The notes beneath the pieces were generated by a model. That model searched no databases and was not told where the DNA came from. It was given only the letters and a program-made list of their open reading frames with translations. A stretch of DNA of 64,000 bases from a virus, in the IMG/VR virus record IMGVR_UViG_3300037468_000262, positions 1 to 64,000 of that record. The stretch is one strand, 5' to 3'. A program made the translations under genes and the position numbers. How positions within the stretch are numbered: the stretch's first letter is position 1; every line of letters starts with the position of its first letter. This document shows, piece by piece, positions 11,927 through 38,603 of this stretch.

Positions 11927-11928
11927 TT

Positions 11929-13468: not shown

Positions 13469-13472
13469 GACA

Positions 13473-14847: not shown

Positions 14848-15090
14848 ATGACAATTGAAAACAAAACAGAATTTGTGAACGAAGTAATTTCACGAGTGCT
14901 TAGCAATGCCCCTGTGAGCGAAGTTATGAGAGTTTATTCTCTATCAGTACAGGCAGCAATCGAAGAACTAGACGACGAAGGATTCCTTCAAGCAGTTCTT
15001 AACGCTGGGTTTACAGACCTGATTGAAAAGTATGTCGAACCCGAAGACTTCTTCGAAGAAGAAGATCTCGAGCTTGCAGAGGTAGTCTAA
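14848..15090 (+). CDS. Hypothetical acidic protein, 80 aa
   Basis: Start ATG 14848. Helical, with SVQAAIEELDDEGFLQAVLN and a strongly acidic tail (EDFFEEEDLELAEVV). Unknown function. Confidence 0.65.
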   Translation: MTIENKTEFVNEVISRVLSNAPVSEVMRVYSLSVQAAIEELDDEGFLQAVLNAGFTDLIEKYVEPEDFFEEEDLELAEVV

Positions 15091-15095
15091 AGAGA

Positions 15096-15158
15096 CGGTT
15101 AACCGAACGGAAGCCGACGGCTTCCACCCTTGTTTTCGCTGAGCGAAACCGCTATAGT
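15096..15158 (+). promoter_or_regulatory. Stem-promoter module 4
   Basis: GGAAGCC-gac-GGCTTCC stem (15109-15125), -35 TTGTTT (15130-15135), 17-nt spacer with TTTCGCTGAGCGAAA, -10 TATAGT (15153-15158). The ATG is 28 nt on (15187); the leader starts with a GTAGG/CCTAC hairpin. Confidence 0.8.
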
Positions 15159-15186
15159 AGGTTCATAAACGAGCCTACTTTTTCGT

Positions 15187-15684: not shown

Positions 15685-15732
15685 CATGGAAAAGCACTAC
15701 GAAAATTTCAACCATCACGCATAAACCACTGA

Positions 15733-16314
15733 ATGAAAACGAACAGCGTTCTCTGCCAAATTGACCATCGCGGTCGCTTGACCAAGCCCGAAACTCTGAA
15801 AGAGTATGGTAAACTCCGAGACCACATGATTCAGAGACCTTGGGAGTTGCTGAGCGACGAGACTTTTATAGACTTAATCACTGAAAAGGGTTGTACCTTC
15901 TACGGGTGCTTGTTCAAAGGTCTTGATCTCATGGAGCTACAGTACCAGCGTCTATGCTGGCACACGCAAACCCTCATCGGCGTAGATTTCGACGAATGCG
16001 AAGTTGATCCGGAGGAAATGGTAGACCTTCACTCTCACTTGGGCTATCAACCTTGGCTCGCCTATCGGACGTTTTCTGATGGGGAATTTCAGGGGAGAAA
16101 TTCTTACCGCCTACTGTGGAAAGCTCGCGTTAACTTGAATGTTTCCTACGAACGGACTCACGCTTTTATTAAAGCTTTTGCTGCACTTGCCGGAGAAGGA
16201 TTGGCTGACAAGCACAGTATGGACCCGAATCGAATGTGGCAGGGTAGTCGAAAAGGCTTCACCCATTACGACCCGGAATCCCCTTCACTAGACCTGCAAT
16301 GCTCAGTACTTTGA
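15733..16314 (+). CDS. Primase/Rep-like (AEP-type) protein, 193 aa
   Basis: LIGVDFDECEVDPEEM gives an acidic strand pair like the catalytic DxD of archaeo-eukaryotic primases, and AYRTFSDGEFQGRNSYRLLW followed by MDPNRMWQGSRKG resembles the second half of Rep/primase domains (YxTxS...RxRLxW...R.W.G). It is short for a full primase and lacks a helicase. Function is inferred from these motifs only. Confidence 0.5.
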   Translation: MKTNSVLCQIDHRGRLTKPETLKEYGKLRDHMIQRPWELLSDETFIDLITEKGCTFYGCLFKGLDLMELQYQRLCWHTQTLIGVDFDECEVDPEEMVDLHSHLGYQPWLAYRTFSDGEFQGRNSYRLLWKARVNLNVSYERTHAFIKAFAALAGEGLADKHSMDPNRMWQGSRKGFTHYDPESPSLDLQCSVL

Positions 16315-16358
16315 CCTAAATCTCCGTAGTTCCCCAAGGTTTTCACGTCACAAGTGAG

Positions 16359-16805
16359 ATGGCCGAGGACATTGTCAAGGAAGCAGGAAGTCCCCCGGAA
16401 GAGTGGTTATTCGGGGCTGTCGATGTGGCGAAACTTCCGGAGTCTTGCCTGCATTTGGGGCAACAAGCGATTGCTTCTTTGAACGAAGTGACGAAAGATT
16501 TCACATGGAGTCTCGGCGGTCAATCACATGCAAAACCAGCAATGGCGTTTGGTCGTGGAAGCATCCCTTTTCATATTGATGAAATTACAGGGTTGACTTT
16601 GCTGATTCTCCTATATTGCCGCCCTTGGCAGTTAGTCCATGATCTAGCAACCTCCGGTCAATTTTTATCTGAAGACGGGTACACCTCATTGACCTTGGGA
16701 AAAGCCCTAGTCTTTAATGATTGCCAGTTTCACGCCTGGTTGACAAACTCGGCCTGGGCCTTCGCGACGTTCCCAATCGTAAAGGAGCGCAGGCACGCTC
16801 CCTGA
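16359..16805 (+). CDS. HxD/H beta-helix protein, 148 aa (paralogue of 15187)
   Basis: FHIDEITGLTLLILL and LTLGKALVFNDCQFHAWL align with THTDHISGLSLLTFL and LKAGESIVFDDSEPHSWM of the earlier gene. HxD and distal His are both kept. The final residues run into a GC-rich palindromic element. Confidence 0.5.
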   Translation: MAEDIVKEAGSPPEEWLFGAVDVAKLPESCLHLGQQAIASLNEVTKDFTWSLGGQSHAKPAMAFGRGSIPFHIDEITGLTLLILLYCRPWQLVHDLATSGQFLSEDGYTSLTLGKALVFNDCQFHAWLTNSAWAFATFPIVKERRHAP

Positions 16806-16890
16806 GGCTCTGTAAGAGCCTTCGCTCCGCTCCGGGCCCAACCCCTTGACCCCGCTCCGACGCTCCCCTCTCGGCCTTCTGGGCCCCTCT
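16786..16890. repeat. GC-rich palindromic island A
   Basis: About 100 nt of sharply higher GC than the flanks, dense in short inverted repeats such as AGGCTCT-GTA-AGAGCCT (16805-16821). It covers the end of the beta-helix gene and the gap before 16920. Similar islands lie inside genes at about 47990 and 59470. Confidence 0.5.
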
Positions 16891-16919
16891 TACGGAGTTC
16901 ACTTTACAACCTTAAACCA

Positions 16920-17442
16920 TTGAGAAGCAAAGTTGCTTTAACCTTCGGTCGATTTAACATAGGCCACTCCGGTCATATTGAGCTGATTGAAAAGTTGCTC
17001 ACCCACGGCGACATTGCCAAAGTATACGTATCGTCGGGCGGGAAGAACAACGACTGGAACCTTCGCGTTCTCCTACTCCGTACGTTATGTCGCCAAGCTA
17101 AAGTCGACCTAAACAGGGTATCATTTCTCAAGGCTATCAATCCCTTTAGAGCTCTTTCTGAGACCTTGGGGGGAGGAACACCCAGAGGACATTTCTCTGG
17201 TCTTAGGCTCGGATCAAACTCACATGGGCAGAGAACTTTCTCAAAAGTTCGACGTTTTCTTCTTTGAGAATAGAAGGAGTAATTCAAGTAGCGAAGTTAG
17301 AAAAATCTTGGACAAAGGTGAGACTCCGGACCCCTACAAAGAAAACAGGTATGCCTTCAAACTTTCAAAACTTTTGAGACACGAGGAAGCTTCAAATGAA
17401 AAGTTCAGAAAAGCTCAAAGAAAAACTAAGACTGCTGCTTAA
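16920..17442 (+). CDS. Nucleotidyltransferase (NMNAT/cytidylyltransferase-like), frameshifted at a G6 run
   Basis: LTFGRFNIGHSGHIELIEKL is the GxFxxxHxGH ATP-binding motif. The first frame ends near 17267, while residues of the second half, SLVLGSDQTHMGREL and NSSSEVRKIL (the SSTxxR-type motif), are in the +1 frame. Removing one G from GGGGGG near 17167 joins them as ETLGEEHPEDISLVLG. The start is TTG 16920. The family makes NAD or CDP-type intermediates. Confidence 0.65.
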
Positions 17443-17617
17443 GGGCTATCCTGGACTTAAAGTCAGTTCCCGCTGGCCTTGGGGGGAGCAAACCTTTCAG
17501 GAAATTGCCTGGGTAGTTCAAGACTATGTAAATAACAGTGGGGACGTAATAAACGAAGACCCTCTTCAGGAATGGGTAGAGGAGTATAACTTTTTCCAAT
17601 TCGAGGTTAAAAAGTAA
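17396..17617 (+). CDS. Hypothetical protein, 73 aa
   Basis: Basic helix MKSSEKLKEKLRLLLKGYPG followed by WPWGEQTFQEIAWVVQDYV. Overlaps the previous gene by 47 nt. Its stop is at the edge of a promoter module. Confidence 0.55.
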   Translation: MKSSEKLKEKLRLLLKGYPGLKVSSRWPWGEQTFQEIAWVVQDYVNNSGDVINEDPLQEWVEEYNFFQFEVKK

Positions 17618-17621
17618 GCTC

Positions 17622-17693
17622 GGGCGGTAAACCGAACCCAAACCGACGGTTGCCACCCTTGGCTTAGCCGAGCGAAACAGGTATAGTTATTCT
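17622..17693 (+). promoter_or_regulatory. Stem-promoter module 5 (leaderless)
   Basis: GGGCGGTAAACCGAACCC and ACCGACGGT stems, -35 TTGGCT (17659-17664), 17-nt spacer with TTAGCCGAGCGAA, -10 TATAGT (17682-17687), 6 nt, ATG 17694. Drives the kinase-phosphatase pair. Confidence 0.8.
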
Positions 17694-18155
17694 ATGAACG
17701 AACTCGAAGCCTACGTGATGGTCGGTGCCCCTGGCTCCGGCAAGTCAACCCAAGTTTCCAAGCTGGTAGCGTCTCACCCAGATGCCGTTGTGATTTCCGG
17801 TGATGACATCCGCGCTGAACTCTACGGCGACGCAGACGTCCAAGGCAACTACGTCGAAATTCACGACCGGATGCTGGAAATTCTCGAAGAGAATGTCGGC
17901 CGCACCGTGATCATGGATGGCACCCACTACAGGGCAGCTTACCGCAAGGAAGCTATCGATATGCTGAACTCATACGGGTACAACAAAGTTGTTGCGGTAG
18001 TAGTCGACAAACCTCTTGCTGTTTGTTTGCGGCAGAACTCTTTGCGGGACCGTAAAGTTCCCGAGCATGTGATTGAGCTCATGCACAACTCTTTGCAAGC
18101 TTCCCTCAAGAATATTACCAACGAGCCCTTCCACCGCATTGACTTCGTCTACTAA
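17694..18155 (+). CDS. Polynucleotide kinase-like P-loop protein, 153 aa
   Basis: GAPGSGKST at residues 11-19 is the P-loop; SGDDIRAELYGD (about 36-47) and IMDGTHYRAAYRKEAI (about 76-91) match the acceptor-binding DD and lid regions of the Pnkp/T4 Pnk kinase family. That family moves ATP phosphate onto 5'-OH ends of RNA or DNA. At 153 residues it equals an isolated kinase domain. It is 6 nt upstream of a PPP-type phosphatase, the same order as in fused bacterial Pnkp. Confidence 0.75.
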   Translation: MNELEAYVMVGAPGSGKSTQVSKLVASHPDAVVISGDDIRAELYGDADVQGNYVEIHDRMLEILEENVGRTVIMDGTHYRAAYRKEAIDMLNSYGYNKVVAVVVDKPLAVCLRQNSLRDRKVPEHVIELMHNSLQASLKNITNEPFHRIDFVY

Positions 18156-18161
18156 ACTACC

Positions 18162-18881
18162 ATGATCACCTATGATGACAAACTTCAGCCGGGGGACGTA
18201 GTCGCCCTCGGAGACATTCACGGAACCTGGAATCTCTTCGAGCAGTTCTTGGAGTGGGTCGAAGGTAATCAAGCGACCGTTGTCTTACTGGGCGACATGA
18301 TTGACCGTGGAGGCCAAGACTTGGAGGTCTTGAAAGCAACCAAGCAACTGCTGGATGACCCCGAGCATCGCGGACTTCAAGCTTTTTATGCTCTGATGGG
18401 CAACCACGAGAGGATGTTTCTTGACGCCATGTTGGTTGACCCGTATGGTCAAGGTTACCATCTGTGGATTCAAAACGGGGGTAATTTCGATCAGGCACCT
18501 GAGATGGTGAAAGAGCACGCAGCCTGGGTGAAAGAGTTACCGATCTATATGGTAATCGGGGATACAATGTTTGTTCACGGGGGTATTTACCCTGGTCACG
18601 ACCCAGCTAAAGCTGTTGCGGAGAAGCGAGGAGATGCCCTTCTGTGGATGCGCCAACCTTTCCTCACGTTTGGCCCTGAGTTTGAGCGTTGGAACCCTAA
18701 CTTAAAAAGGGTTGTTCACGGTCACACCCCTACAGTTTATGAAGAAGGTGGTCGAGACCGAGTGCCAATTCACAAAGGCGACAGGGTGAACATTGACACC
18801 GGTGCTTACGTTCGTGAGGGGTGCCTCACTGCCTACAACGTAACTCGAAACACTTTTCACCAGTTTATAAAACCTAAATGA
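18162..18881 (+). CDS. PPP-type metallophosphatase, Pnkp phosphatase-like, 239 aa
   Basis: GDIHG (about 17-21), GDMIDRG (about 44-50), GNHE (about 80-83) and VHGHTPTV (about 186) are the metal-binding motifs of calcineurin-like phosphatases. The family includes lambda-type protein phosphatase, ApaH and the central 2',3'-phosphatase of bacterial Pnkp. Adjacency to the kinase favours an RNA/DNA end-healing role; a protein phosphatase remains possible. Confidence 0.8.
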   Translation: MITYDDKLQPGDVVALGDIHGTWNLFEQFLEWVEGNQATVVLLGDMIDRGGQDLEVLKATKQLLDDPEHRGLQAFYALMGNHERMFLDAMLVDPYGQGYHLWIQNGGNFDQAPEMVKEHAAWVKELPIYMVIGDTMFVHGGIYPGHDPAKAVAEKRGDALLWMRQPFLTFGPEFERWNPNLKRVVHGHTPTVYEEGGRDRVPIHKGDRVNIDTGAYVREGCLTAYNVTRNTFHQFIKPK

Positions 18882-18945
18882 AAGTATACTAACTTCAGGT
18901 GGTAAGAGTCTCACCGCTGCTTCTCAAAAGTCACCCAAGCTTATT

Positions 18946-19599
18946 ATGGACTACTTCGACCTGTACTACTCATACCTTTCCAAGTGTGAAAAGAGTAATT
19001 GGATGAATCTTAGGGACCCTAATCATGACGATATGGAGTGGAATCACACTCTGCCCCAGTGCATATTCAAGGGTCATGGACCAGGTCAGTGGCTAACTAT
19101 GGAGCAACATGCAATTGCTTCGGCGTTGCAGACGTTGGCGTTTGAGCATGACGTGATTTGTGGTTGGCACTGGAAATACTTGCCGGAAGAACTGAGAAAG
19201 AAAACAAAAGAGGTGGTTAGCCGCGTAAAAAGCGAACGCATAACAGGAATAAATAATCACCAATACGGGAAACCTCACACACAAGAAACGAAAGAAAAAA
19301 TAGCAAGAACCCTTTCCAATGGGGCGGCAGACGGTTTCAATCGAAAAGGTAAGCTTCACCCCATGTACGGAAAAAGCCATAATCCCGAGTCGAAAAGAAA
19401 AATCTCTGAATCCATGAGAGGAGATAAAAACCACAATTACGGTAAACAAATGTCTCAAAAGCAGAAAGACGAAATTTCCCTAACGAAAAAGAAAAGGTTT
19501 AAATGTTTAGTTACAGGATTTATTAGCAGTTTTTCGGGTTTATCTAAATACCAGAATAGTAGGAGGATAGACACTTCACTTCGCATTCAAATCAACTAG
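18946..19599 (+). CDS. Free-standing homing endonuclease with NUMOD3 repeats, 217 aa
   Basis: Residues 27-65 (MEWNHTLPQCIF, then LTMEQHAIAS) look like an HNH/His-Me core. The remainder carries three NUMOD3-type DNA-binding repeats, GINNHQYGKPHTQETKEKI, HPMYGKSHNPESKRKIS and NHNYGKQMSQKQKDEIS. Its A-rich base composition differs from the neighbours, consistent with a mobile gene between the phosphatase and the exonuclease. Confidence 0.8.
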   Translation: MDYFDLYYSYLSKCEKSNWMNLRDPNHDDMEWNHTLPQCIFKGHGPGQWLTMEQHAIASALQTLAFEHDVICGWHWKYLPEELRKKTKEVVSRVKSERITGINNHQYGKPHTQETKEKIARTLSNGAADGFNRKGKLHPMYGKSHNPESKRKISESMRGDKNHNYGKQMSQKQKDEISLTKKKRFKCLVTGFISSFSGLSKYQNSRRIDTSLRIQIN

Positions 19600-23861: not shown

Positions 23862-24010
23862 CTACTGAGAGTAAACTCGAAACCTTGGACCCCTCAACAC
23901 CCTGGTACGAGTTTCTTTCATACTGTGAAGTTTGTAGGAGTTTAGGGGTGACTCCGTCTGTTGGTCGTTTCACCCGGTATCGAAACTACTTAAAATCTCT
24001 TCAATCATGA
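23858..24010 (+). CDS. Small protein, 50 aa
   Basis: TTG start on the previous stop; TPWYEFLSYCEVCRSLGVTP is a compact Cys-containing segment. Its TGA overlaps the dTMP kinase ATG, so it lies in the same coupled operon. Confidence 0.45.
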   Translation: MTTESKLETLDPSTPWYEFLSYCEVCRSLGVTPSVGRFTRYRNYLKSLQS

Positions 24011-24681
24011 TTTCTAAACACAGAGGACAACTAATAACCTTTGAAGGTATCGACGGCTGCGGAAAGACTACCCAATTGAAGGCTGTTGCCGAATGGTTGC
24101 CTACGAGCGGATTACTTCCGGAAGGAGCCGGAGTTGTAACAACTAGAGAGCCAGGGTGCATTCCTGGTATTAGACAACTTCTTAAAGACCCGGACACTGT
24201 GATCACATCTAGGGCAGAGCTTCTGCTTTTGATGGCAGACCGGGCTCAGCATGTTGAAACCGTGATTAAGCCTGAACTTGAAAAGGGAAGCTGGGTGTTG
24301 TGCGACCGCTTCTACGCAAGTACCCTGGCCTACCAAGGTTGGGGGCGAGCATTAGGGTGGCAAGCAGTCAAGCAAGCTCATGAACTTGCTTCAGGGCTGT
24401 TGTACCCAGATCTGGAACTATTCTTCGACGTTCCAGCCGACGAAGCCTTGGCAAGGTTGAAGCGTAGAGAAGGCAGCGAATTTGCCGGCGACCGGTTCGA
24501 AGTGCAGGGACGACCTTTCGTTGATCGCTTAGTAGACGGGTTTGATACTTCTACTAAATTACCCTTCCTTAAGGAATACCCTCACACTACGATCGACGGG
24601 TGTCGTAAACCTGAAGAGGTTACTGCCGAGTGTATTCAGACAATTTCGAGGTTAGGCCGCCTCTGGGGGTCTCAGCTATGA
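24007..24681 (+). CDS. tmk: Thymidylate kinase
   Basis: TFEGIDGCGKTTQL (about 10-23) is the P-loop, TTREPG (about 48-53) the DR(E/Y)-type loop and CDRFYASTLAYQGWGR (about 99-114) the dTMP-binding and lid region. It phosphorylates dTMP to dTDP. Full family length at 224 residues. In a phage with thymine-modifying enzymes it may secure the dTTP supply or act on a modified dUMP. Confidence 0.9.
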   Translation: MISKHRGQLITFEGIDGCGKTTQLKAVAEWLPTSGLLPEGAGVVTTREPGCIPGIRQLLKDPDTVITSRAELLLLMADRAQHVETVIKPELEKGSWVLCDRFYASTLAYQGWGRALGWQAVKQAHELASGLLYPDLELFFDVPADEALARLKRREGSEFAGDRFEVQGRPFVDRLVDGFDTSTKLPFLKEYPHTTIDGCRKPEEVTAECIQTISRLGRLWGSQL

Positions 24682-26679: not shown

Positions 26680-28161
26680 ATGGTAATAGAAAATGCAAGG
26701 CAGACCGCTGCGGCAGTCTGTGATAAAAATATCGAATGCGACAATAGCTGCTCGGTTAGTGAAACCGTTCTCTGTGACTTGCGTTCTCGCCCCGCCCCAC
26801 GCAGGATCAACCTCGACGCACTTTACAAATGCGACCCGAAAGATTACATCGGCTATTTTGCTGACGAAACTTCATACGACAATCTCATTCAAGAAGACTG
26901 CGACGTTTACGTTGCCGGAGTCAAAGTTGTCGCCTTCCGTAAGTCCCTGTTCCCGAAGCTGAAGGAAGGTTCCAAGGGCGATCCGAAGACTTGGGAATAC
27001 TTTCGCTGGGCAGCTCGCGATCTTTACTCGGACCAGCGCGGTCTTGTTGCCGGTCGAGAACTTACCACGGATCTTGAAATCAGGGTCACGAACGGAATCG
27101 TGAACTTTCTTAAGAAGGCCATGGCTGGTCAAGTTACCGAAGTTGAAGAGGCTCTGAAAATTGTTAGCCTCTCCCCAGACCATGGTAAGCTCACGGTTAG
27201 AATCACAGAAGTCAAGAAAGACTACCCGGAAATTGCCAAAGCTCTTGAACCTATCGAGGCAGAACTTCGCAAGAAAGCAACAACCGAAGAAAGAAAAGTA
27301 GAGCTGAAGAAGGCGAAGGGAGAAGAACTTGCAAAGTGGTTCCCAACCTGGCTGTCGCAAACCTGGGCTGGTGCGAAGGATAAAGAGGCTGAAGCCAAGA
27401 GAGCTGATGACAGGTACATTAGCAAGCAGCTACGCTCAAACAAATGCTATTCTAACGTTCTTGGGGCTTTCGATAGAGGGGCAAGAAACCCTTACGGTCG
27501 CTTGACCGCTACCACCCTTAAAAACTACGATGGTTTCGTGGGCCATACAGACATTTATCAGACTGCGTGTGCAGCACTGAAGGAAACCCTGAACACCGAG
27601 GAAAACCCTCGCTGGGATCGCCTTCACAACCGATTCGGCAACGTGAAAGACCCGCACTACAACCTTTTCGGTACGGTGTTTACCGCCCTGACACTAAACT
27701 GGAACTTCCGCTGTGCAATGCACTATGACGGGAACAATTGCGAAGGGGGTATTGCCGTTCTTACTGCAATGACTCAGGGCGAATACGACGGTCATTACCT
27801 GGTGTTCCCAGAAATCCGCTGCGCCTTTGACCTTCGTGACGGGGACTTCATTGCCGGTGACAACCAAGGTTTGATCCATGGTAACACAGCGATGATTCCG
27901 AAAACCTCTGACGCTGAACGGGTCTCTTTCGTTTTCTATTCTCGTGAGCGTATGACCCTGCTTGATGATATGAAGTGCGAAGATTGCCGCCGCGATTTCA
28001 TGAAGTACGCCGCTGAAAACTATACTCAGTACGGCAAGGGACACAAAACCTGGAACGGCGTGTGGCAAGGAATGTGGAAGTCTTCAGAATGGATGAAATT
28101 CAAAGTATTTAATGGAGCGGAGCGTTGCTCAAACACCAACTACTGGGGAACTGAAAATTAA
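26680..28161 (+). CDS. TET/JBP-family dioxygenase, copy 1 (493 aa)
   Basis: MHYDGNN near residue 347 gives the HxD pair, EYDGHYLVFPEIRCAFDLR follows, then RDGDFIAGDNQGLIHGN with the distal His near 400 and AERVSFVFYSR with the 2-oxoglutarate-binding Arg. This is the JBP/TET signature of Fe(II)/2OG enzymes that hydroxylate the methyl of thymine or 5-methylcytosine in DNA. The N-terminal 140 residues are extra to the core, and CEDCRRDF may bind metal. A second, shorter copy follows at 29164. Confidence 0.8.
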   Translation: MVIENARQTAAAVCDKNIECDNSCSVSETVLCDLRSRPAPRRINLDALYKCDPKDYIGYFADETSYDNLIQEDCDVYVAGVKVVAFRKSLFPKLKEGSKGDPKTWEYFRWAARDLYSDQRGLVAGRELTTDLEIRVTNGIVNFLKKAMAGQVTEVEEALKIVSLSPDHGKLTVRITEVKKDYPEIAKALEPIEAELRKKATTEERKVELKKAKGEELAKWFPTWLSQTWAGAKDKEAEAKRADDRYISKQLRSNKCYSNVLGAFDRGARNPYGRLTATTLKNYDGFVGHTDIYQTACAALKETLNTEENPRWDRLHNRFGNVKDPHYNLFGTVFTALTLNWNFRCAMHYDGNNCEGGIAVLTAMTQGEYDGHYLVFPEIRCAFDLRDGDFIAGDNQGLIHGNTAMIPKTSDAERVSFVFYSRERMTLLDDMKCEDCRRDFMKYAAENYTQYGKGHKTWNGVWQGMWKSSEWMKFKVFNGAERCSNTNYWGTEN

Positions 28162-28582: not shown

Positions 28583-28882
28583 ATGACAACTGACAACCTA
28601 GAACAAGCCCCACAGCAAACACAATTTACTGAAGTCACGATTAATTTGCCGACAGACTTTGCTGAGGCTTTGAACTCGCTGGCAGAACGAGAAGGGCTGA
28701 CTGCAGATGCTTTGGTAATGCGATCGCTTGGCCTTTACTCCATGGCATCACAAGCCGAGAGTGGTGGCCACGGTCTAACGTTCACTCGTATCGAAGGTAC
28801 CAACGATTTAACAGTTAAGGAGATGATTCGTATCGAAGATGAGCCCGAATCTAACTTGTTTATTCCAGGTAAGAGGAAATGA
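28583..28882 (+). CDS. Ribbon-helix-helix-like protein, 99 aa
   Basis: TEVTINLPTDFAEALNSLAE followed by LTADALVMRSLGLYSMA fits the beta strand and two helices of CopG-type regulators. A C-terminal extension with LTVKEMIRIEDEPE is shared with the next gene. It could regulate the dioxygenase genes; target unknown. Confidence 0.6.
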   Translation: MTTDNLEQAPQQTQFTEVTINLPTDFAEALNSLAEREGLTADALVMRSLGLYSMASQAESGGHGLTFTRIEGTNDLTVKEMIRIEDEPESNLFIPGKRK

Positions 28883-29100
28883 CTCGAGAAGCAATAGCGA
28901 AAGAATTGCGGGCTACTGATGAATTTCTTGGTGCTCTAGATGGCTTGGCATCGAAAGAAAACCTTTCTAGAGCTGATATTATTCGAAGGGGAGTTGGCCT
29001 TTATGCGCGCATGATCGTAGAGAAGGAGCAAGGGCGTTTTTTTGCTGTTGTTGCAGTAGAAAACGGGGGGTTAACCGTAAAAGAAGTCGTCCAGCCATAG
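28879..29100 (+). CDS. Ribbon-helix-helix-like protein, 73 aa (paralogue of 28583)
   Basis: DEFLGALDGLASKENLSRAD, IIRRGVGLYARM and LTVKEVVQP align with the previous protein. ATGA overlap. The strand part is poorly conserved. Confidence 0.55.
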   Translation: MTREAIAKELRATDEFLGALDGLASKENLSRADIIRRGVGLYARMIVEKEQGRFFAVVAVENGGLTVKEVVQP

Positions 29101-29163: not shown

Positions 29164-30342
29164 GTGGAATTTCGGCTAGGATCTCGTTTAACTAAGGGGC
29201 AAGTTGCCTTCTTCGCCGGTGCTTCTGTGGGTTTGATTACCACGCTTGCCCAAGCGCGAGAGGCCCTAGAAAGCTCGGATGAACTTACTAGCAAGACGCT
29301 CAAGATCAAGTACATAAAGAAAGACTATCCAGAACTCGCGGAAAGAATGAAACCCTTGGAGGCAGAAATTCGAACCCTAGGCGCTGACGACCCCAGACTA
29401 GAAAGTCTGAGAAACCAGAGAAGAGATCAACTTTGGAGCTGGTTTGAGCCTTGGTTGTTGGAAACCTGGTTGCCCTCAGAAAACAAAGTAGAAGAAGTTA
29501 AAAAGGTTCTAAGCACGTACATAAGTTCCCAGTTGAACTTTAACCACTGCTACAGTAACGTCCTTGGGGCGATTGACCGTGGGGCGAGATTTCCCTACGG
29601 TCGTTTGAGCGGAACCACTCAAAGGTACTACGAACAGTTCTCAAAGTACAGGGACATTTATTACGAAGCTTGCGAAGGTTTCCGGCATACTTTCCCGGAA
29701 ACATGGAGCAAAGTTAAGGAAGTAATTTCGAGGGTTAAAGATCCCAACTACAACTTGTTCGGCACTGCCTTTACGAGTGTGACTCTAAACTTCAATTTCA
29801 AGACTGCCTACCACGTTGACAAGAACAATTTGAAAGGAGGTCTGGCCGTCTTAACTGCTTTCACAAAGGGTGTTTATGAAGGCCACTACTTGGTGTTTCC
29901 CGAAGTGAGATTGGCCTTCAACTTAAGAGATGGGGACTTTATCGTAGGGGACACTCAAACCTTGCTTCATGGTAACAGCCCCATGACAAAACTTACTGAA
30001 GATGCTGAGCGGGTTTCTCTGGTTTTCTACTCACGAGAGAACATGACCCGATTGGACGATCTTGAGTGCGAAGAATGCCGAAAACAGTTCATGAAGTTTT
30101 CACTTCAGACTCTGAAAGAACGAGGCAAAGATCACAAAGATTGGAGGGGCGTGTGGCAAGGAATGTGGACTTCTCAAGAATGGCTAGACTTTCGAAAAGA
30201 AAGAAACTTGGAATACTGTTCAAACTCCAATTGGCAGCTTTCCTCGCCGTACGAGAACGAAGTTACGAAAGAGGTGAAGCTGTTCAAGGATGATCCCGGC
30301 GAAGGATGGAAACTCGTACAAGTGTTTACACAAGGTCGGTGA
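29164..30342 (+). CDS. TET/JBP-family dioxygenase, copy 2, N-terminally shortened (392 aa)
   Basis: Every core element of copy 1 is present: YHVDKNN (HxD), VYEGHYLVFPEVRLAFNLR, RDGDFIVGDTQTLLHGN and AERVSLVFYSR. The first recognisable match begins at about residue 115 of copy 1, because a TAG (29110-29112) closes the frame upstream and GTG 29164 is the likely start. The catalytic core looks intact, so it may be active with a different target. It ends inside module 8. Confidence 0.75.
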   Translation: MEFRLGSRLTKGQVAFFAGASVGLITTLAQAREALESSDELTSKTLKIKYIKKDYPELAERMKPLEAEIRTLGADDPRLESLRNQRRDQLWSWFEPWLLETWLPSENKVEEVKKVLSTYISSQLNFNHCYSNVLGAIDRGARFPYGRLSGTTQRYYEQFSKYRDIYYEACEGFRHTFPETWSKVKEVISRVKDPNYNLFGTAFTSVTLNFNFKTAYHVDKNNLKGGLAVLTAFTKGVYEGHYLVFPEVRLAFNLRDGDFIVGDTQTLLHGNSPMTKLTEDAERVSLVFYSRENMTRLDDLECEECRKQFMKFSLQTLKERGKDHKDWRGVWQGMWTSQEWLDFRKERNLEYCSNSNWQLSSPYENEVTKEVKLFKDDPGEGWKLVQVFTQGR

Positions 30343-31617: not shown

Positions 31618-32385
31618 ATGAAAGACCCAACCTTCCTTCTTCAATCCGGTGGCCCGCTACCAACCGAAAAAATTGCCTGCAGCTTCTCGTGTTACCCTAT
31701 AAAGTATTGCTCTTTTACAGACATTGAGAAGTTGGACCCTAAGGAATCCTTGACTCGATTCGTTCCAGTCGGATCCGTAGAGTTCGTTAAAGCCTACAGC
31801 CAGCATATTGGAATTAGACTACCTGAGGACTTCTCCTACGGGATTTGCGATGGTCAACTTGACCAGTTCCTAATGAGGCCTATCCGAAAAGGCACTTACG
31901 GCGAGGCAACTCTAACTGATTTCGTCAAGCCTATTGCAATTAAGATGTTTACAGGCAATGTTAAGGGTCACATTGAGCTAAGTTCAGCGTGCCCCTCCCC
32001 TTCTGAGGATACCCCCGTTTGGATTTCCCCAGCCGTACCATTTGGAGCTGAGTTCCGCTTCTACATTCACGATTTTATCAGGGGTGGTAAAATTCAAGGG
32101 TGGTCTCGATACGATGATTCAAACATGGAATGTCCGGAGCCTGACATCGGCCTGGTTGAAGCCGTAATGAAAGAGTTGGAAGAAAACATTGCTCCGGGTG
32201 CGTACACGGTGGACATCGGATGGAGACCCGACTTGGAACGCTATTGCTTGGTAGAAATCAATGATGCGTGGGCGCTCGGTTTGTATGAAAACTCAGATTT
32301 CCAGTCGAACCCTCCAACCCGACAGCAGTACGCTGACATGTTGGTTTCCCGTTGGAGACAAATTCTTTTCTGTAGCTTGGTATAA
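31618..32385 (+). CDS. R2K-clade ATP-grasp ligase, 255 aa
   Basis: FGAEFRFYIHDFIRGGKIQG near residue 140, YTVDIGWRPDLERYCLVEIN near 200 and the arginine/lysine pattern in MRPIRKGTYGEA fit the R2K group of ATP-grasp enzymes (DUF4343-type). They form amide or peptide bonds through an acyl-phosphate. It is the first of four overlapping genes with a glutamine amidotransferase and two amidoligases, a combination known from predicted peptide-tagging operons. Confidence 0.7.
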   Translation: MKDPTFLLQSGGPLPTEKIACSFSCYPIKYCSFTDIEKLDPKESLTRFVPVGSVEFVKAYSQHIGIRLPEDFSYGICDGQLDQFLMRPIRKGTYGEATLTDFVKPIAIKMFTGNVKGHIELSSACPSPSEDTPVWISPAVPFGAEFRFYIHDFIRGGKIQGWSRYDDSNMECPEPDIGLVEAVMKELEENIAPGAYTVDIGWRPDLERYCLVEINDAWALGLYENSDFQSNPPTRQQYADMLVSRWRQILFCSLV

Positions 32386-33044
32386 TGTGCGCCTTATTTG
32401 GATGTGACCTGGAAGAAGTCACTCAAGACAACATTCAAACAATACAACGCATCGCCCTTGAATCCCAGGTCAGGGGTAAACATGCAACAGGTATTTCCTA
32501 CATTGGGAAAAACGGTCTTGAAACAATCACTGCGCCTGTTTGTGCACAGGAATTTCTGAACATCTATGACATAAATGATTGTGTCTCAGATGACTGTTTA
32601 ACTTTGATTGGCCATTGCCGCTATTCTACCTCTGACATCAGGTACAATCAACCGCTAACGAACGGCTCTCTTGCCATCGCCCACAACGGTGTCATTGAGC
32701 AGTCGCCCCCTGAAACTTGGACAAAGTTTGGGTACGAACTTGAAACTACCAACGATTCAGAACTTGTACTTCGCGCTATCGAAAATAAAGAACAACCCTT
32801 GAAAAAGTTTCCTGAAGCTTCTATGGCTGTATTAGAGCTGAGAGAGAATGGTTCCATGCGCTATTATCGCAATGGAAAAAGACCTTTGTGGAAAAGTGAA
32901 GTCGAAAACGGTTTCTTCCTCACCTCAACGAAAGACATTGCCTTGAGGGCGGGATTGAAGAATCCAGTCCGCTGCCTTCCGGGTTTCCTTTACCAGGGCA
33001 AGGCTGCAACTAAAATAATTGAAGTTGAAGAGCTGATCGCATGA
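32385..33044 (+). CDS. Class II glutamine amidotransferase (Ntn hydrolase), 219 aa
   Basis: Cys2 directly after the initiator Met (MCALFG) is the nucleophile. GHCRYSTSDIRYNQPL near 68-83 and LAIAHNGVIEQ near 88-98 are the glutamine-binding motifs seen in PurF, GlmS and AsnB. There is no synthetase domain, so it probably hands ammonia to, or trims amides for, the flanking ligases. Start and stop overlap its neighbours. Confidence 0.8.
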   Translation: MCALFGCDLEEVTQDNIQTIQRIALESQVRGKHATGISYIGKNGLETITAPVCAQEFLNIYDINDCVSDDCLTLIGHCRYSTSDIRYNQPLTNGSLAIAHNGVIEQSPPETWTKFGYELETTNDSELVLRAIENKEQPLKKFPEASMAVLELRENGSMRYYRNGKRPLWKSEVENGFFLTSTKDIALRAGLKNPVRCLPGFLYQGKAATKIIEVEELIA

Positions 33045-33919
33045 CTTACGACCCTCGAAAGTTTACATACGGGTACGAAATTGAGTGGGGGGACATACCG
33101 AGAGATTTCAACATACCTGAGCACTTGGGAACTTGGGAACATGCGGAAACCGACATCCTTAATTTGCACGGGGACTACGCTCTTAGAGCTGTAGATCCTT
33201 TGGGAACTGACCCACCCATGGGCGGTGAAATAAATACCAAGCCGACGCATACCTGGAAAGAGCAAGTTGAGAGAATCTTAGAAATTCGCGATATGTTCAT
33301 CAACGTCGGACACACTCCGACTGCATCTTTGGTGAACCACGGTCACTTACATGTCTTCGTGCCAGGACTGAAGGAAGACTTGTCAAGCCTACGAAAACTG
33401 GTCTCTTACGTTCGAGATAACCAACAACTAACCGTTGAAAAGTGTTACGGCTACTATGATGACCCGGACATGAAGGGGGCAGTCAGAGGAGCCAAGTCTT
33501 ACCTGAAGCTCGATGGGGGTAGGTTAATGCCCCAGTACATGATCGACAACATATTAAACTTGTCCACGGACTTCAACCACTTGATTAAGTTGCACGCTGC
33601 AGGGAAAGACGGCGTGTCAATGGGACGACCGTTCAGATATGCAATAAACATCTACTGCATGAAACACACAGGTACTGTTGAGTTCCGTTGTTTCAGATCC
33701 AGCGTAAATCGCCGGGAGATCGAAGACCAGTTCCGCTTCGTAGAGGCATTCATTGATGCCGCCCTTAACGACGGCCCACCTGTTGAGACTATTCTCAAAG
33801 AGAACAACTATCAGTTTCCTCCTTATGTCTGGAACAAGGAACACTGGAACGCTTGGGCGCTCACCAAGTGGGACAAGTCCAGGGGCAAAAAAGTCAGAAA
33901 TTACTACGAGGTTCAATGA
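33041..33919 (+). CDS. Amidoligase-like protein 1, 292 aa
   Basis: FTYGYEIEWGD at the N-terminus, GGEINTKPT (about 66-74), HGHLHVFVPG (about 102-111) and GTVEFRCFRSS (about 211-221) follow the order of metal and ATP motifs in the amidoligase (GCS-like COOH-NH2 ligase) superfamily. It likely joins a carboxylate to an amine. The substrate is unknown. It overlaps the next, homologous gene by 4 nt. Confidence 0.7.
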   Translation: MTYDPRKFTYGYEIEWGDIPRDFNIPEHLGTWEHAETDILNLHGDYALRAVDPLGTDPPMGGEINTKPTHTWKEQVERILEIRDMFINVGHTPTASLVNHGHLHVFVPGLKEDLSSLRKLVSYVRDNQQLTVEKCYGYYDDPDMKGAVRGAKSYLKLDGGRLMPQYMIDNILNLSTDFNHLIKLHAAGKDGVSMGRPFRYAINIYCMKHTGTVEFRCFRSSVNRREIEDQFRFVEAFIDAALNDGPPVETILKENNYQFPPYVWNKEHWNAWALTKWDKSRGKKVRNYYEVQ

Positions 33920-34866
33920 TTGAGGCTACTTTCGGAGCTGAATATGAACTCGGAGACGTTAACCGCTTGCTGGAACTACCTGCTGGGGCAAATTGGAACT
34001 TTAAAGATCACAGCATTGCCAATTCTACGGGTATCGCAAATGATGAAAAAGCCAAGTTGTACACCATTGGTGGTGAGATAAACTCTGACCCAACCAGTAC
34101 AATCGAAGGGCAGTTGAGAATATGGGAATCTATAAGGGATTCCCAAAGTCAGATTCACATTAATCACAGGACCAATTTACACTTGCACATTCATGTGCCA
34201 GGGTTGAGAGAAGACCTTGATCCGTTGAAGCGTCTAATGCAATACGTTCAAGAACAACAAGACAGGGTCTATCACTTGATTGAACCCCTGAATCCACCCG
34301 AGAAAGTAAATTACAAAACAGCAGCATCTTTTAAGGGTGCTATGGATCGTTACAAGCGTCGTTTAGTCAGCCACCAAAACAGACTCAGGCCTGCGCAGGT
34401 TAAGTCTTGTATGGAAGCAGTGACTGCTGAAGAGTTTATCAACGGTCACGCACCGAAAAACAAGAAGGGTGAACCCTTGTGGGCCTTGGCAATTAGAGGT
34501 GGAATTAATATATCACAACTTCGCGAAACCAATACAATCGAATTCCGACATTTCACTCCCACTGTAGACATCGAAGAGCTAGAGTGTTGCTTCTCATGGA
34601 TCCATGAATTTATGAACGCAGCATTGGTTACAGGTGAATCTGTCGATAGCATCTACTCAAGAAAGCCCTGGAAGTTCCCACCGTTCGCTGCCTACGACCA
34701 CGACATTGATGTGGTCTTTCGTTGGACAGACTTGGAGAAGAACAAACGTTCCGAAGTGAAACAACGTCTTGATCGTTTGACCGAACACTTTGATATTTAT
34801 TCCCAACCGGCGAGGGATATGTCAGAATTTGTCAGCTTAGAAAGTGGTGGAAAATTAGCTCTTTAA
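33916..34866 (+). CDS. Amidoligase-like protein 2, 316 aa
   Basis: ATFGAEYELGD, IGGEINSDPTST, NLHLHIHVPG and NTIEFRHFTPT line up with the same motifs of the preceding protein, so the two are paralogues that may form a heterodimer or act in sequence. Start ATG 33916 overlaps the upstream stop. The 3' end converges with, and overlaps by 35 nt, the antisense phosphatase gene. Confidence 0.7.
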   Translation: MIEATFGAEYELGDVNRLLELPAGANWNFKDHSIANSTGIANDEKAKLYTIGGEINSDPTSTIEGQLRIWESIRDSQSQIHINHRTNLHLHIHVPGLREDLDPLKRLMQYVQEQQDRVYHLIEPLNPPEKVNYKTAASFKGAMDRYKRRLVSHQNRLRPAQVKSCMEAVTAEEFINGHAPKNKKGEPLWALAIRGGINISQLRETNTIEFRHFTPTVDIEELECCFSWIHEFMNAALVTGESVDSIYSRKPWKFPPFAAYDHDIDVVFRWTDLEKNKRSEVKQRLDRLTEHFDIYSQPARDMSEFVSLESGGKLAL

Positions 34867-35248
34867 TCTGCTGGGCTACTGCGCGATGCACTTCTTCACC
34901 CTTGTGCCTGAACGGATCTTCAACGTTCCAGTTTCGAACCTTCAAGGGATCAACAAAGAAGTTCTTATTTATGCGGTCTACATGCAAATGAGACATGCAA
35001 ATGACTTGATCAGCCCAGTCCAACAATTCTTGGGAGTAAGGTTGTGCGATGTGTTGCTCACCACTGTAACCCATCTCTGCCAAAACCCGTCTCATTTTAG
35101 GAGCCATTCTTGAGTGGTCCACGGCTTGTTTTGAAGTCCCACACGAATCTACTTTGTACAAACCCGTATTATGAAAACTAAGGATAACATGAGCAGCAGC
35201 GCTTCTATTTATATTACCGGTGCAACAAAACAAAACATTAGAGACCAT
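34832..35248 (-). CDS. Low-molecular-weight protein tyrosine phosphatase-like, 138 aa
   Basis: VLFCCTGNINRSAAAHVIL (about 5-23) is the CX5R phosphate loop with the nucleophilic Cys, and NVEDPF near 108-113 holds the general-acid Asp. VDSCGTS and the remaining layout agree with LMW-PTP. Targets include phosphotyrosine and arsenate in other members. It is the only convincing minus-strand gene in the window and overlaps genes on both sides. Confidence 0.8.
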   Translation of the reverse strand: MVSNVLFCCTGNINRSAAAHVILSFHNTGLYKVDSCGTSKQAVDHSRMAPKMRRVLAEMGYSGEQHIAQPYSQELLDWADQVICMSHLHVDRINKNFFVDPLKVRNWNVEDPFRHKGEEVHRAVAQQIKELIFHHFLS

Positions 35249-36250
35249 GTTGATTACCGATTGTTAGAGAATAGAAGGGAGGGTTTTTTGCAGTGGTGGA
35301 TTACCTCAACGGCGGCACTCGACACAGACCCTAGTCTATGGATGATGCGGTACTTGAACGACCGTTATGAGCATAGCACCGAAGAGAAACTTTGGTTCGC
35401 TTGGCTGTTCCACACATATAATTTACCCACATCATGGACAGTTAAGCAGGAATTTCCTGATGAAGAGTTAGCAAGTGTAGAAAGATTCGACACTTTCGTT
35501 GGTGAAAATTACCCCAGAATTCGTCATGAAAAAGACACTAAGTGGTCGCGTGGACACCTGGCAGCAATGTATGCGAGCTACCACGATTGGGTTGGTGAGA
35601 GTACTCAGAGAGACAAATTCTGGGAACTGTGCCAAGGCTCCCCCGAAGAAAACTTCTGGCGTCTTTGGAACTTAGTCATAGAGAAATTCTTCAAGTTCGG
35701 TCGGTACACCACCTTCTTTTACTTACAAACTCTTAAGCAAACGTGTAATTTGCCGTTAGACTGCCCCTCTCTATTTCTGAGCGATTACTTAGGTAGTAAA
35801 AGCCATAGAAACGGTCTTTGCTTCGCGGCTGGAAAAGATGACTGGGTCAATCAAAAGTTGACTCCGGCAGAGTACGCTTGGCTAGAGGGCTTCGGTGCTG
35901 ACTTGCTTGTAGAAGCACATTCGCGGTGGCCCGACTTCAAAGGAGACATGGACAACTTCGCCCTTGAAACCTGTCTGTGCTCCTACAAAAAAGTTTTCCG
36001 GACAGCTAACGGCCGTTATATCAATTATTACAACGATCGAGTCTCTGAGCAAATTGCCAAGGCAGAAGGAGATGGTTGGTCAGGTATCGATTGGAATGTT
36101 TTGCATCAGTGCCGCAGCGAGTGCTCTAACGGGCGTCTTCGTAAAGAAGACAAAATTGACAAAACAAAAATGCACCTCTTCGTTGATCAAGGAACTTTTC
36201 ACTTCCTTTGGCATGGCAGCGAACTAACTCCGCTTACTGGGAACCTGTAG
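35171..36250 (+). CDS. Amino acid:DNA transferase-like (ADDT-type) protein, 359 aa
   Basis: REGFLQWWITSTAALDTDPS, then LNDRYEHSTEEKLWFAWLF and YNLPTSWTVKQEFP, resemble the ADDT/glutamyl-putrescinyl thymine transferase group of phage hypermodification enzymes (compare EExxWFAFL...TS). These replace a phosphate on 5-hydroxymethyluracil in DNA with an amino acid or polyamine. The kinase expected to make that phosphoryl-hmU lies directly downstream. Recognition is from motif memory, so family assignment is moderate. Start could be ATG 35171 or 35189. Confidence 0.6.
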   Translation: MKTKDNMSSSASIYITGATKQNIRDHVDYRLLENRREGFLQWWITSTAALDTDPSLWMMRYLNDRYEHSTEEKLWFAWLFHTYNLPTSWTVKQEFPDEELASVERFDTFVGENYPRIRHEKDTKWSRGHLAAMYASYHDWVGESTQRDKFWELCQGSPEENFWRLWNLVIEKFFKFGRYTTFFYLQTLKQTCNLPLDCPSLFLSDYLGSKSHRNGLCFAAGKDDWVNQKLTPAEYAWLEGFGADLLVEAHSRWPDFKGDMDNFALETCLCSYKKVFRTANGRYINYYNDRVSEQIAKAEGDGWSGIDWNVLHQCRSECSNGRLRKEDKIDKTKMHLFVDQGTFHFLWHGSELTPLTGNL

Positions 36251-36283
36251 GGCTATACTCATCTTGTAACACACTCACACACA

Positions 36284-36771
36284 TGAAACTAACTCACTAC
36301 TTTGGAGTGCCCGGTTCCGGGAAGACGACGTTGATGCGACAAAAACTCGAAATTCTCCGTTCCGTTGAAGCAGACGAGTTTGTCAAAGAGGGTTTCATAG
36401 CCTACCATAAATTCACCCAACAAAAAACTATCGTCCTAGGGTGCTACGACGAAAGAACTTTTTCTGGCACTGACACGTGGTCGAAATCGGCTGGCCCCAA
36501 GTTTCGCCAATGGCTACTCGATAATTCTGAAAGGTATGTGGGTTGGGAGGTCTTTTCGGAAGGAGAGAGGCTGTCGAACAGCCCTACCTTAGATGCAATG
36601 TTCGCCACGGGGGACATGACGCTTGTTCTTGTTCAAGTTAGCGACGAAGAACTTGAGAAAAGAAGAGCAGCCAGGAATAACACCCAAAACGAGACTTGGA
36701 TGAAAGGTATGCAAACTCGGATGAACAACCTTGCCCAAAAGTACACTCATACCGTACTCATCAACGATTGA
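36284..36771 (+). CDS. 5-hmU DNA kinase-like P-loop protein, 162 aa
   Basis: YFGVPGSGKTTLM (about 6-18) is the P-loop; FSGTDTWSKSAG (about 61-72), EVFSEGERLSN and the C-terminal RAARNNTQNETWMKG...RMNNL follow the pattern of the 5-hmdU DNA kinase family (GTD-S and EGDR motifs, with RRxxR-N near the end). That family phosphorylates 5-hydroxymethyluracil in DNA. It sits 33 nt after the ADDT-like gene. Confidence 0.65.
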
Positions 36772-37401: not shown

Positions 37402-38034
37402 ATGGAAGCCTACACCAAGTATCCTCGGACTTTTCACTTCCCGTGGTCCGAAGCTGTCACGTCTGACGACAAGGTTGTTCCTTCTGTCGCCCATTTAGAG
37501 GGCCGCCAAGTGATTGTAACCGAGAAGATGGATGGCGAAAATACGACCATGTATCGGCATCACATTCACGCCCGCAGTCTTGACAGCAAAGGTGGTGAGG
37601 ACCGTGCCTGGGTCAAGCAGTTCTGGGCGTCGATCCGTGGTGAAATCCCTGAAGGGTGGCGAATCTGCGGTGAGAACCTTTGGGCGAAACATTCTGTTTC
37701 CTACACCAACCTTCGGTCATACTTTTACGGGTTTAGCATCTGGGACGCAGATAACCAGGCACTGTCTTGGGAGGATACTGTGGACTACTTTGCAATGTTG
37801 GGCATTACTCCCGTTCCCATGCTTTATTCTGGAGTTTGGGATGAGGTTGTTATCCGCAATTTGTCCAAAAGTCTTAACTTAGTTGAGGCCGAAGGCTATG
37901 TCGTTCGCCTTGCCGATTCCTTTCACTACGACAACTTTAGCACTTCCGTGGCAAAGTTTGTTCGCAAGGGTCATGTTCAGACTGACAAGCACTGGCGATC
38001 ACAGCAGTTTGTCCCCAATGGCCTGGCTACCTGA
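37402..38034 (+). CDS. RNA ligase (covalent nucleotidyltransferase), 210 aa
   Basis: TEKMDGEN (about 40-47) is motif I with the lysine that becomes adenylated. FYGFSIWD (about 110) is motif III/IIIa, EGYVVRL (about 164) motif IV and VAKFVRKGH (about 182) motif V. All five nucleotidyltransferase motifs are in order, and HFPWS before motif I is common in this RNA-ligase group. It seals 5'-phosphate to 3'-OH ends. Same promoter type as the kinase-phosphatase pair at 17694. Confidence 0.85.
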   Translation: MEAYTKYPRTFHFPWSEAVTSDDKVVPSVAHLEGRQVIVTEKMDGENTTMYRHHIHARSLDSKGGEDRAWVKQFWASIRGEIPEGWRICGENLWAKHSVSYTNLRSYFYGFSIWDADNQALSWEDTVDYFAMLGITPVPMLYSGVWDEVVIRNLSKSLNLVEAEGYVVRLADSFHYDNFSTSVAKFVRKGHVQTDKHWRSQQFVPNGLAT

Positions 38035-38060: not shown

Positions 38061-38603
38061 ATGGCAACCACATACAAACCCCCCGCATCATTCACCCCTG
38101 CAATTCAATCCCAAAAATTCAGCGTTTTTCTAGCAGGCTCTATAGAAATGGGCACCGCACCTGACTGGCAAGCCGAGGTAGAAAATCAGTTGGCAGATCT
38201 CGATATGGTCATCTACAATCCGCGCCATGAAGACTGGGACCCAACTTGGGTTCAAAGCGCAGATAATCCCCAATTCCGTGAACAAGTGGAGTGGGAACTT
38301 AGTGCTTTAGATATCGCTGACTTGATCTTGATTTACCTGGCCCCAGGTACAGTGTCCCCAATATCTTTACTTGAGTTGGGTATTCACGCCGCTAAAAGAT
38401 ACTATACTCGTGAAAAGCAGCCGAGTTTCCGACATGAAAATACCATATTGTGCTGCCCCGAAGGGTTCCAGAGAAAGGGCAACGTAGACATTATCTGCGA
38501 GCGTTACGGTGTTGAACAAGTCAAAGACTTAGCTAGCCTATCAGACAGTGCTCGACATTGGTATAAGAACTGGGAATACAACACGAAGTTACACTCTAAC
38601 TAA
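38061..38603 (+). CDS. Nucleoside 2-deoxyribosyltransferase-like protein, 180 aa
   Basis: SVFLAGSIEMGTAPDWQAEV (about 22-41), then NPRHEDWDPTW and FREQVEWELSALDIADLILI match the Nuc_deoxyrib_tr_2 group, which exchanges bases on deoxynucleosides. The catalytic Glu is probably in WELSAL. A role in recycling or editing modified nucleosides fits the context. Confidence 0.75.
   Translation: MATTYKPPASFTPAIQSQKFSVFLAGSIEMGTAPDWQAEVENQLADLDMVIYNPRHEDWDPTWVQSADNPQFREQVEWELSALDIADLILIYLAPGTVSPISLLELGIHAAKRYYTREKQPSFRHENTILCCPEGFQRKGNVDIICERYGVEQVKDLASLSDSARHWYKNWEYNTKLHSN

Follow-up and report, generated by a model that had tools for sequence, protein, structure and literature searches.

The window, the whole stretch of DNA analysed here, comprises 64,000 nucleotides of the IMG/VR virus record IMGVR_UViG_3300037468_000262. 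Two TET/JBP 2-oxoglutarate dioxygenase genes, TET1 (26680..28161, + strand; Pfam Tet_JBP, 9.7e-14) and TET2 (29164..30342, +; Tet_JBP, 8.5e-19), lie upstream of a ligase cassette. This cassette opens with an R2K-clade ATP-grasp ligase (31618..32385, +; Pfam R2K_3 9.3e-22, R2K_2 3.1e-20), whose reading frame has an alternative TTG start at 31609, and continues with a stand-alone class-II glutamine amidotransferase, GAT-II (32385..33044, +; GATase_6, 1.5e-8), the amidoligase AL1, with a predicted glutamine-synthetase fold (33041..33919, +), and a second amidoligase, AL2 (33916..34866, +), with stop-to-start overlaps throughout these four genes. They are followed by a gene of the amino acid:DNA transferase family, ADDT (35171..36250, +; PF18724, 2.3e-17), and a P-loop kinase gene (36283..36771, +; PF18751 'Ploopntkinase3', 7.3e-13). 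An ADDT start at 35249 was ruled out, as the codon there is GTT. The initial annotation had placed these six genes, from R2K to kinase, at about the same positions, with the kinase starting at 36284 instead of 36283, and its assignments to R2K ATP-grasp, class-II amidotransferase, two amidoligases and an ADDT-like gene hold by Pfam and fold; it had overlooked an LMW-phosphatase-family gene on the minus strand between AL2 and ADDT (34832..35248; LMWPc, 2e-15).

TET1 and TET2 share 50% identity, and the HxD residues (H348, D350) and the distal H400 are invariant in an alignment of the cassette TETs. Neither the thymidylate-synthase family (PF00303) nor cytosine-C5 methyltransferase (PF00145) gave a match in 19 cassette contigs (the window's own and 18 relatives, four of them 161-171 kb), although such contigs are fragments, so that further enzymes could lie elsewhere or be supplied by the host. 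TET/JBP genes thus stand in these contigs instead of the PF00303 dUMP-level hydroxymethylase of pathways of the ViI/M6/PaMx11 kind, and the C5-methyltransferase partner expected of a 5mC-dependent phage TET system is absent from them. These sequence comparisons suggested that the TET/JBP enzymes probably make 5-hydroxymethyl-U (5-hmU) directly on DNA, in agreement with the source first proposed for it, the two upstream dioxygenases.

Downstream, the window ADDT shares PF18724 with the characterised glycinyltransferase of phage PaMx11. In fold comparison, its model matched this 5-phosphomethyl-dU glycinyltransferase (8z2n) with Z 18.0 over 254 residues at 3.5 A; kinship with PaMx11 gp46 is read from this comparison and from Pfam membership, profile-profile comparison being uninformative with a three-sequence template. 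The motif ETxLCxxK was present in 37/37 cassette ADDTs and also in PaMx11 gp46. The gene at 35171, whose placement elsewhere had been set beforehand as grounds for abandoning the idea, therefore falls inside a base-modification family. In the kinase alignment, Walker A, E94GxR97, R128 and R132 are invariant. The earlier call of a 5-hmU DNA kinase-like gene stands in so far as the PF18751 family is distantly but detectably related to PaMx11 gp49, but it lies outside the named HMUDK/HMUD2 families, and we propose this enzyme as a candidate 5-hmU DNA kinase.

As for the ligases, AL1 scored 17.4 bits to PF12224 (Amidoligase_2), under the curated cut-off of 22 bits, and gave no useful match among PDB sequences. 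Its model (pLDDT 94.5) has the glutamine synthetase/GCS2 fold, with Z about 10 (9.2-10.4) to YbdK/GS/GCL, and 50/50 structures among the matches listed belong to the GS/GCL/YbdK/PafA superfamily, indicating that AL1 is, by its predicted structure, a GS/GCS2-fold amidoligase of the COOH-NH2 ligase kind. AL2, aligned with AL1 at 27% identity, does not match PF12224 itself; its close relatives in loci L075 and L088 match it weakly. E13, E15, E63, H102, H104, R199, E214 and R216 are invariant in the amidoligase alignment. The R2K gene scored 78.4 bits to R2K_3 against a cut-off of 26.3, which places it in the R2K ATP-grasp clade as first annotated; it was found only in the window's own clade (loci L006, L075 and L088), making it an extra there and not a general part of the ligase set. 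An LMW phosphatase lies beside AL2 in loci L006, L075 and L088-L091, and beside AL2 on the + strand in loci L116, L130, L144, L151 and L167.

The linkage of these genes was then counted in IMG/VR loci fetched by amidoligase. ADDT came after the amidoligase in 56/56 loci, the kinase was present in 41/41, GAT-II adjoined the amidoligase in 68/69, and TET was found in 57/66, the remainder being mostly cut contigs and one having TET elsewhere on the contig. The gene order is kept in dozens of independent contigs, so chance clustering is ruled out; conservation of the neighbourhood in other phages, a check suggested at the outset, is thereby established. Near-invariant linkage, together with the family and fold of ADDT, also bears out the original view of a base-hypermodification cassette with the ligases as members. 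Relatives of the window ADDT occur in at least 566 IMG/VR stretches. AL1/AL2-type amidoligases were found in only 2/50,697 phage records and, among 84,980 prokaryote genomes, in one small metagenome-bin contig only. Between dozens and hundreds of uncultivated viruses from water carry the cassette.

GAT-II conserves the class-II amidotransferase catalytic set: M1-C2 with the Cys2 nucleophile, Arg79, the oxyanion residues Asn101-Gly102 and Asp124 are invariant or nearly so in an alignment of 29 sequences. GAT-II was present in 41/42 cassettes, compared with 19/42 for the amidoligase, and its active site is intact also in cassettes without amidoligase, including four contigs of 161-171 kb that carry no amidoligase anywhere. 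GAT-II is thus a core cassette gene even where the amidoligase is absent. It had been grouped with the amidoligases as an amide maker; it does belong to the cassette, but since each is found without the other, it is probably not the amidoligase's partner, and we infer that it acts as an ammonia source. That GAT-II directly abuts the amidoligase in AL1-type loci would suit a glutaminase-amidoligase pair and counts against ammonia passing to ADDT, and neither an ammonia channel nor a GAT-II:ADDT fusion was found at the cassette loci.

The slot between GAT-II and ADDT is occupied by either an acetyltransferase (GNAT) or an amidoligase, and the two were exchanged at least 10 times on the ADDT tree, a quick tree with weak inner support. 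A similar exchange was seen in phage Simon (PQ683277), which has homologues of PaMx11 gp46-47-49-50-51-52, while an amidoligase and an LMW phosphatase replace gp48, the acetyltransferase of the PaMx11 cassette, and GAT-II is absent. The ADDT of Simon is gp46-like; it was found by PF18724 and missed by the cassette-derived ADDT profile.

On balance, we lean towards reading the cassette as a post-replicative thymidine hypermodification pathway that runs through ammonia-derived 5-aminomethyl-U and ends in acylation. The thymine methyl group in DNA would be oxidised by TET/JBP to 5-hmU, which the P-loop kinase would convert to 5-phosphomethyl-U. Glutamine would be hydrolysed by GAT-II, and ADDT is proposed to displace the phosphate with ammonia, giving 5-aminomethyl-U (5-NmdU) in one reaction that would stand in for glycine addition and the flavin lyase of PaMx11. 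In many relatives the amine would then be acylated by the GNAT acetyltransferase; in the window, ATP-dependent AL1 and AL2, perhaps with R2K for a proposed extra aminoacyl addition, would yield aminoacyl- or short-peptidyl-aminomethyl-U, and the LMW phosphatase may serve the AL2 branch. What was observed comprises the protein families and folds, the conserved catalytic residues, the linkage of the genes and the amidoligase/acetyltransferase swap; the substrates, the use of ammonia, the sequence of reactions and the structure of the final base are inferred. The product is most likely an aminated thymine capped with an amino acid or short peptide, which would disguise the viral DNA chemically and whose assembly follows a course that no laboratory-grown phage has shown. 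Whether AL1, AL2 and R2K add residues in turn on 5-aminomethyl-U, building a non-ribosomal short peptide on the genome, is a tentative extension to which we give a limited chance.

Among the other explanations, the strongest, though unlikely, is that ADDT attaches glycine or another amino acid to 5-hmU, as happens in phages already studied, and that the free carboxylate of this amino acid is then amidated by GAT-II and the amidoligase in the manner of asparagine synthetase. GAT-II and AL1 are adjacent and overlap in most loci, the structural relative of ADDT is a glycinyltransferase, GS-fold enzymes can use ammonia, and a CmoY-like cluster contains a glutamine-hydrolysing domain (PMC12783734); against this stand the active-site-intact GAT-II on the long contigs without amidoligase, and phage Simon with its amidoligase but no GAT-II. 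It is improbable that TET acts on 5-methylcytosine and that 5-hmC, not thymine, is decorated: some phage TET genes adjoin a C5-methyltransferase (Methylophilales phage Melnitz-1), but PF00145 is absent from the 19 cassette contigs and the characterised ADDT relative works on 5-phosphomethyl-dU. We give an equally small chance to products that vary by locus, with the window ADDT taking an unusual small amine built by the ligases as a free molecule before transfer to DNA; sets of ATP-grasp, amidoligase and GAT-II make small peptides in secondary metabolism (PMC4431377), but this leaves the alternation within one slot, and phage Simon, unexplained. Least probable of all, the ligases would be a separate host-directed module for protein or cell-wall modification or superinfection exclusion that lies next to a DNA-modification cassette, as proposed for phiEco32, LUZ24 and R2K phages; proteins or the cell wall are the targets in earlier predictions for phage amidoligase/GATase (PMC10580990) and for R2K enzymes (PMC4431377). 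Against this stand the near-invariant linkage across diverse contigs, the swap with acetyltransferase, the insertion within the classical hmdU cassette of Simon, and the absence of AL1/AL2-family, TET, ADDT and kinase genes from LUZ24 and phiEco32.

If the ammonia-derived pathway is true, phages have two unrelated ways of making 5-aminomethyl-U, and enzymes that use acetyl-CoA and enzymes that depend on ATP are interchangeable in capping it. A DNA base bearing peptide chains would represent a DNA modification of a new class. The abundance of ADDT relatives suggests that a DNA chemistry so far unstudied is widespread. The five-gene set is directly testable and may offer a new means of attaching amines or aminoacyl groups to the thymines of DNA; the reading also gives a clear prediction on restriction resistance.

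Compared with known systems, the LUZ24/phiEco32 cassette also combines a GAT-II-related domain, amidoligases and an ATP-grasp enzyme, but that enzyme is RimK-type and accompanied by GGCT, whereas the window has R2K; the AL1/AL2 profile found no match there, ruling out the window as a classical cassette of this type. In the HMO-2011 control, the amidoligase, TET, ADDT and kinase profiles had no match in the 50 kb examined. The ParB-TET-ADDT-kinase cassette of Cluster-B mycobacteriophages (Heath, L095) shares TET, ADDT and the PF18751 kinase with the window, but no GAT-II, amidoligase, GNAT or R2K is annotated in its 11.6-kb stretch. Amide decoration of a phage DNA base, which the initial annotation took to be undescribed, is already known from CmoY (2025), which forms a glycine amide on 5-carboxymethylcytosine (PMC12783734), though on cytosine and by another route. 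The CmoA/CmoX/CmoY system of Synechococcus phage S-B43 shares with the window a linked ParB-like gene and, on our reading, the ATP-driven joining of an amide to a base of phage DNA; it differs in its cytosine base, carboxymethyl handle and asparagine-synthetase-type ligase, and as described has no TET, kinase or ADDT, while a CmoX-type C5-methyltransferase (PF00145) had no match in the window's contig or 18 relatives. Phage Simon is like the window in that its hmdU cassette includes an LMW phosphatase and an amidoligase of the AL2 type, but it uses a classical dUMP hydroxymethylase and flavin lyase, with neither GAT-II nor TET. The PaMx11-type set consists of gp46 and gp47 (glycinyltransferase and flavin-dependent lyase by their PDB names), the acetyltransferase gp48, HMUDK and dUMP hydroxymethylase. 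The window shares with it the Pfam family and fold of ADDT, a kinase family related to gp49 and a terminal acylation enzyme. It differs in that the flavin lyase is absent (0 gp47 homologues at GAT-II cassette loci), TET replaces the thymidylate-synthase-family enzyme, GAT-II is present, and ATP-dependent ligases either substitute for the acetyltransferase or accompany it.

The IMG/VR virus record is 70,656 bases long, and the window spans its positions 1-64,000. The six genes of the initial annotation, which had proposed a ligase cassette fused to a DNA hypermodification cassette, were confirmed as a single forward run. It starts with an R2K ATP-grasp gene (31618-32385; Pfam R2K above cut-off; frame also open from TTG 31609), a class-II glutamine amidotransferase (GAT-II, 32385-33044; GATase_6 above cut-off) and two amidoligases, AL1 (33041-33919; PF12224 score under cut-off) and AL2 (33916-34866; no Pfam match), these first four being linked by start-to-stop overlaps, and ends with an amino acid:DNA transferase (ADDT, 35171-36250; PF18724 above cut-off) and a P-loop kinase (36283-36771; Ploopntkinase3, PF18751, above cut-off). 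Upstream lie two TET/JBP dioxygenase (TET) genes (26680-28161 and 29164-30342; Tet_JBP above cut-off). An overlooked low-molecular-weight (LMW) phosphatase-family protein (LMWPc above cut-off) is encoded at 34832-35248 on the minus strand, opposite to the cassette; in L116, L144, L151 and L167 its gene is on the cassette strand, adjoining AL2.

Around the cassette, a thymidylate kinase (24007-24681), an RNA ligase (37402-38034) and a nucleoside 2-deoxyribosyltransferase-like gene (38061-38603) were observed, the latter two also accompanying it in close relatives. Between the TET genes, 28583-29100 holds two small look-alike genes (99 and 73 aa), ribbon-helix-helix-like by eye. The window also carries a cytidylyltransferase-like (NMNAT-like) gene apparently split in two overlapping frames (16920-17442), and a phage-encoded DNA gyrase/topoisomerase IV subunit A (58013-60034), whose gene is directly downstream of the cassette in relatives L089-L091.

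A structure model of AL1 was built from a 43-sequence alignment (pLDDT 94.5). Since all 50 entries listed by VIA-align belonged to the glutamine synthetase (GS)/glutamate-cysteine ligase/YbdK/PafA superfamily (Z 9.2-10.4), AL1 is, as modelled, a GS-fold ligase; the putative metal and ATP ligands were invariant. The ADDT model (pLDDT 87.8) matched best 8z2n (Z 18.0, 254 residues, 3.5 A), which is gp46 of Pseudomonas phage PaMx11 and is named 5-phosphomethyl-2'-deoxyuridine glycinyltransferase in the PDB, far ahead of other chains, with oxoguanine DNA glycosylases next (Z about 9). PaMx11 gp46 is likewise a PF18724 member and has the ETxLCxxK motif found in 37/37 aligned ADDTs. The kinase's family, PF18751, is not among the named HMUDK families, but searches with its members from the cassettes pick up PaMx11 gp49.

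The neighbourhood, whose conservation had been suggested as a check, kept its gene linkage around AL1 relatives, 102 of which were found in IMG/VR. In counts that include only contigs long enough for each gene, and are silent on ADDT frequency without AL1, GAT-II adjoined an amidoligase in 68 of 69 loci, ADDT and kinase lay downstream in 56/56 and 41/41, and TET and a GNAT acetyltransferase were present in 57/66 and 60/74. Most of the nine TET-less loci were cut short on one side; L077, alone in having long flanks to the left and right, carries a TET gene at another place on the contig. The R2K gene was restricted to the window's own clade. A ParB-like gene without a Pfam match, recognized by eye, lay between GNAT and ADDT in 40/56 (for example L030, 9509-10828). 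ParB genes are also found next to TET in mycobacteriophages and pelagiphages, and next to CmoX in a 2025 paper (PMC12783734).

An ADDT-alignment search of IMG/VR gave at least 566 relatives, of which 80 were kept for locus comparison. Among testable loci, GAT-II was present in 41/42, kinase in 63/65 and TET in 24/28, with an amidoligase in just 19/42. Between GAT-II and ADDT, the slot was either empty or occupied by AL1 together with GNAT, by AL2 together with the LMW phosphatase, or, in 35 loci (four of which had an additional gene), by a second GNAT family on its own. Four cassette-bearing contigs of 161-171 kb had no amidoligase across their whole length, and GAT-II retained its catalytic residues in amidoligase-less cassettes. 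In a quickly built ADDT tree, amidoligase and GNAT replaced one another in this slot 10 times or more, an approximate number, many inner branches being weak. All these results group GAT-II with TET, ADDT and kinase, and argue that the amidoligase would be an exchangeable finishing enzyme.

Phage Simon (L108, PQ683277), one of only two phage records with an AL1/AL2-type amidoligase, offers a natural experiment. The PaMx11 hmdU cassette comprises gp46, gp47 (flavin-dependent lyase by PDB name), the acetyltransferase gp48, the kinase-like gp49, gp50 (HMUDK_hel), gp51 of the thymidylate-synthase family and gp52 (HD); we take gp48 to acetylate 5-NmdU. The unannotated Simon record has a similar cassette (10846-19075, minus strand) with homologues of gp46, 47, 49, 50, 51 and 52, but gp48 is missing, and an AL2-type amidoligase and LMW phosphatase stand in its position. 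The amidoligase therefore occupies the place of an amine-acetylating enzyme, and the two alternate in TET cassettes too. The Simon cassette has no GAT-II, and no TET/GAT-II cassette locus has a gp47 homologue. Economically read, both pathways would pass through 5-aminomethyl-U, made by glycine and flavin lyase in PaMx11 and Simon and by GAT-II ammonia in TET cassettes, the amine then being acylated. The main rival, in which GAT-II and amidoligase amidate an already installed amino acid, leaves unexplained both GAT-II without amidoligase and amidoligase without GAT-II.

Known thymidine-hypermodifying phages produce 5-hmdU as a nucleotide (PMC6449724), PaMx11 with its gp51 being one case. Neither a thymidylate-synthase-family gene nor a C5-cytosine methyltransferase was found on 19 cassette contigs, including a 201-kb relative of the window; the simplest reading, from family and absence of alternatives, with fragmentary contigs and host enzymes as caveats, is that TET would oxidise T to 5-hmU on DNA. 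Judged at family level, the P-loop kinase would then phosphorylate 5-hmU. ADDT would aminate it using GAT-II ammonia, as co-occurrence and the missing lyase suggest, and fold, slot exchange and phage Simon lead us to infer acylation of the amine by AL1/AL2/R2K, which may add one residue or more. It is very probable that the cassette serves thymidine hypermodification and that the ligases are part of it; the full order, from TET through kinase and GAT-II/ADDT amination to ligase acylation, is favoured with modest confidence.

That a kinase and ADDT can act together to hypermodify thymidine is already known. For TET, GAT-II, ADDT and kinase with an amidoligase we found no published description, though Iyer et al. 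(2013), who reportedly surveyed TET/JBP neighbourhoods, may have noted part of it; the combination was absent from the phage records listed in the ADDT and GAT-II searches. Beside ADDT and kinase in mycobacteriophage Heath (L095), gene 2 (785-1759) is labelled 'queuine tRNA-ribosyltransferase', probably a misannotation given its Tet_JBP resemblance (E 5.5e-6, under the curated cut-off); PHROG 6059, of the same name, also matches the window's TET2. Vibrio phage 2.275.O (L004) has an AL-type amidoligase (11866-12978) and a weak GATase-like gene (15512-16126) amid 7-deazaguanine genes (QueF/QueC/GTP cyclohydrolase), a context suggesting that the amidoligase family may also serve guanine modification. 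Cluster-B mycobacteriophages share TET, ADDT and kinase with the window cassette, but without GAT-II. In 2025, CmoY was shown to ligate an amide onto a base of phage DNA, carboxymethylcytosine, in an ATP-dependent reaction (PMC12783734).
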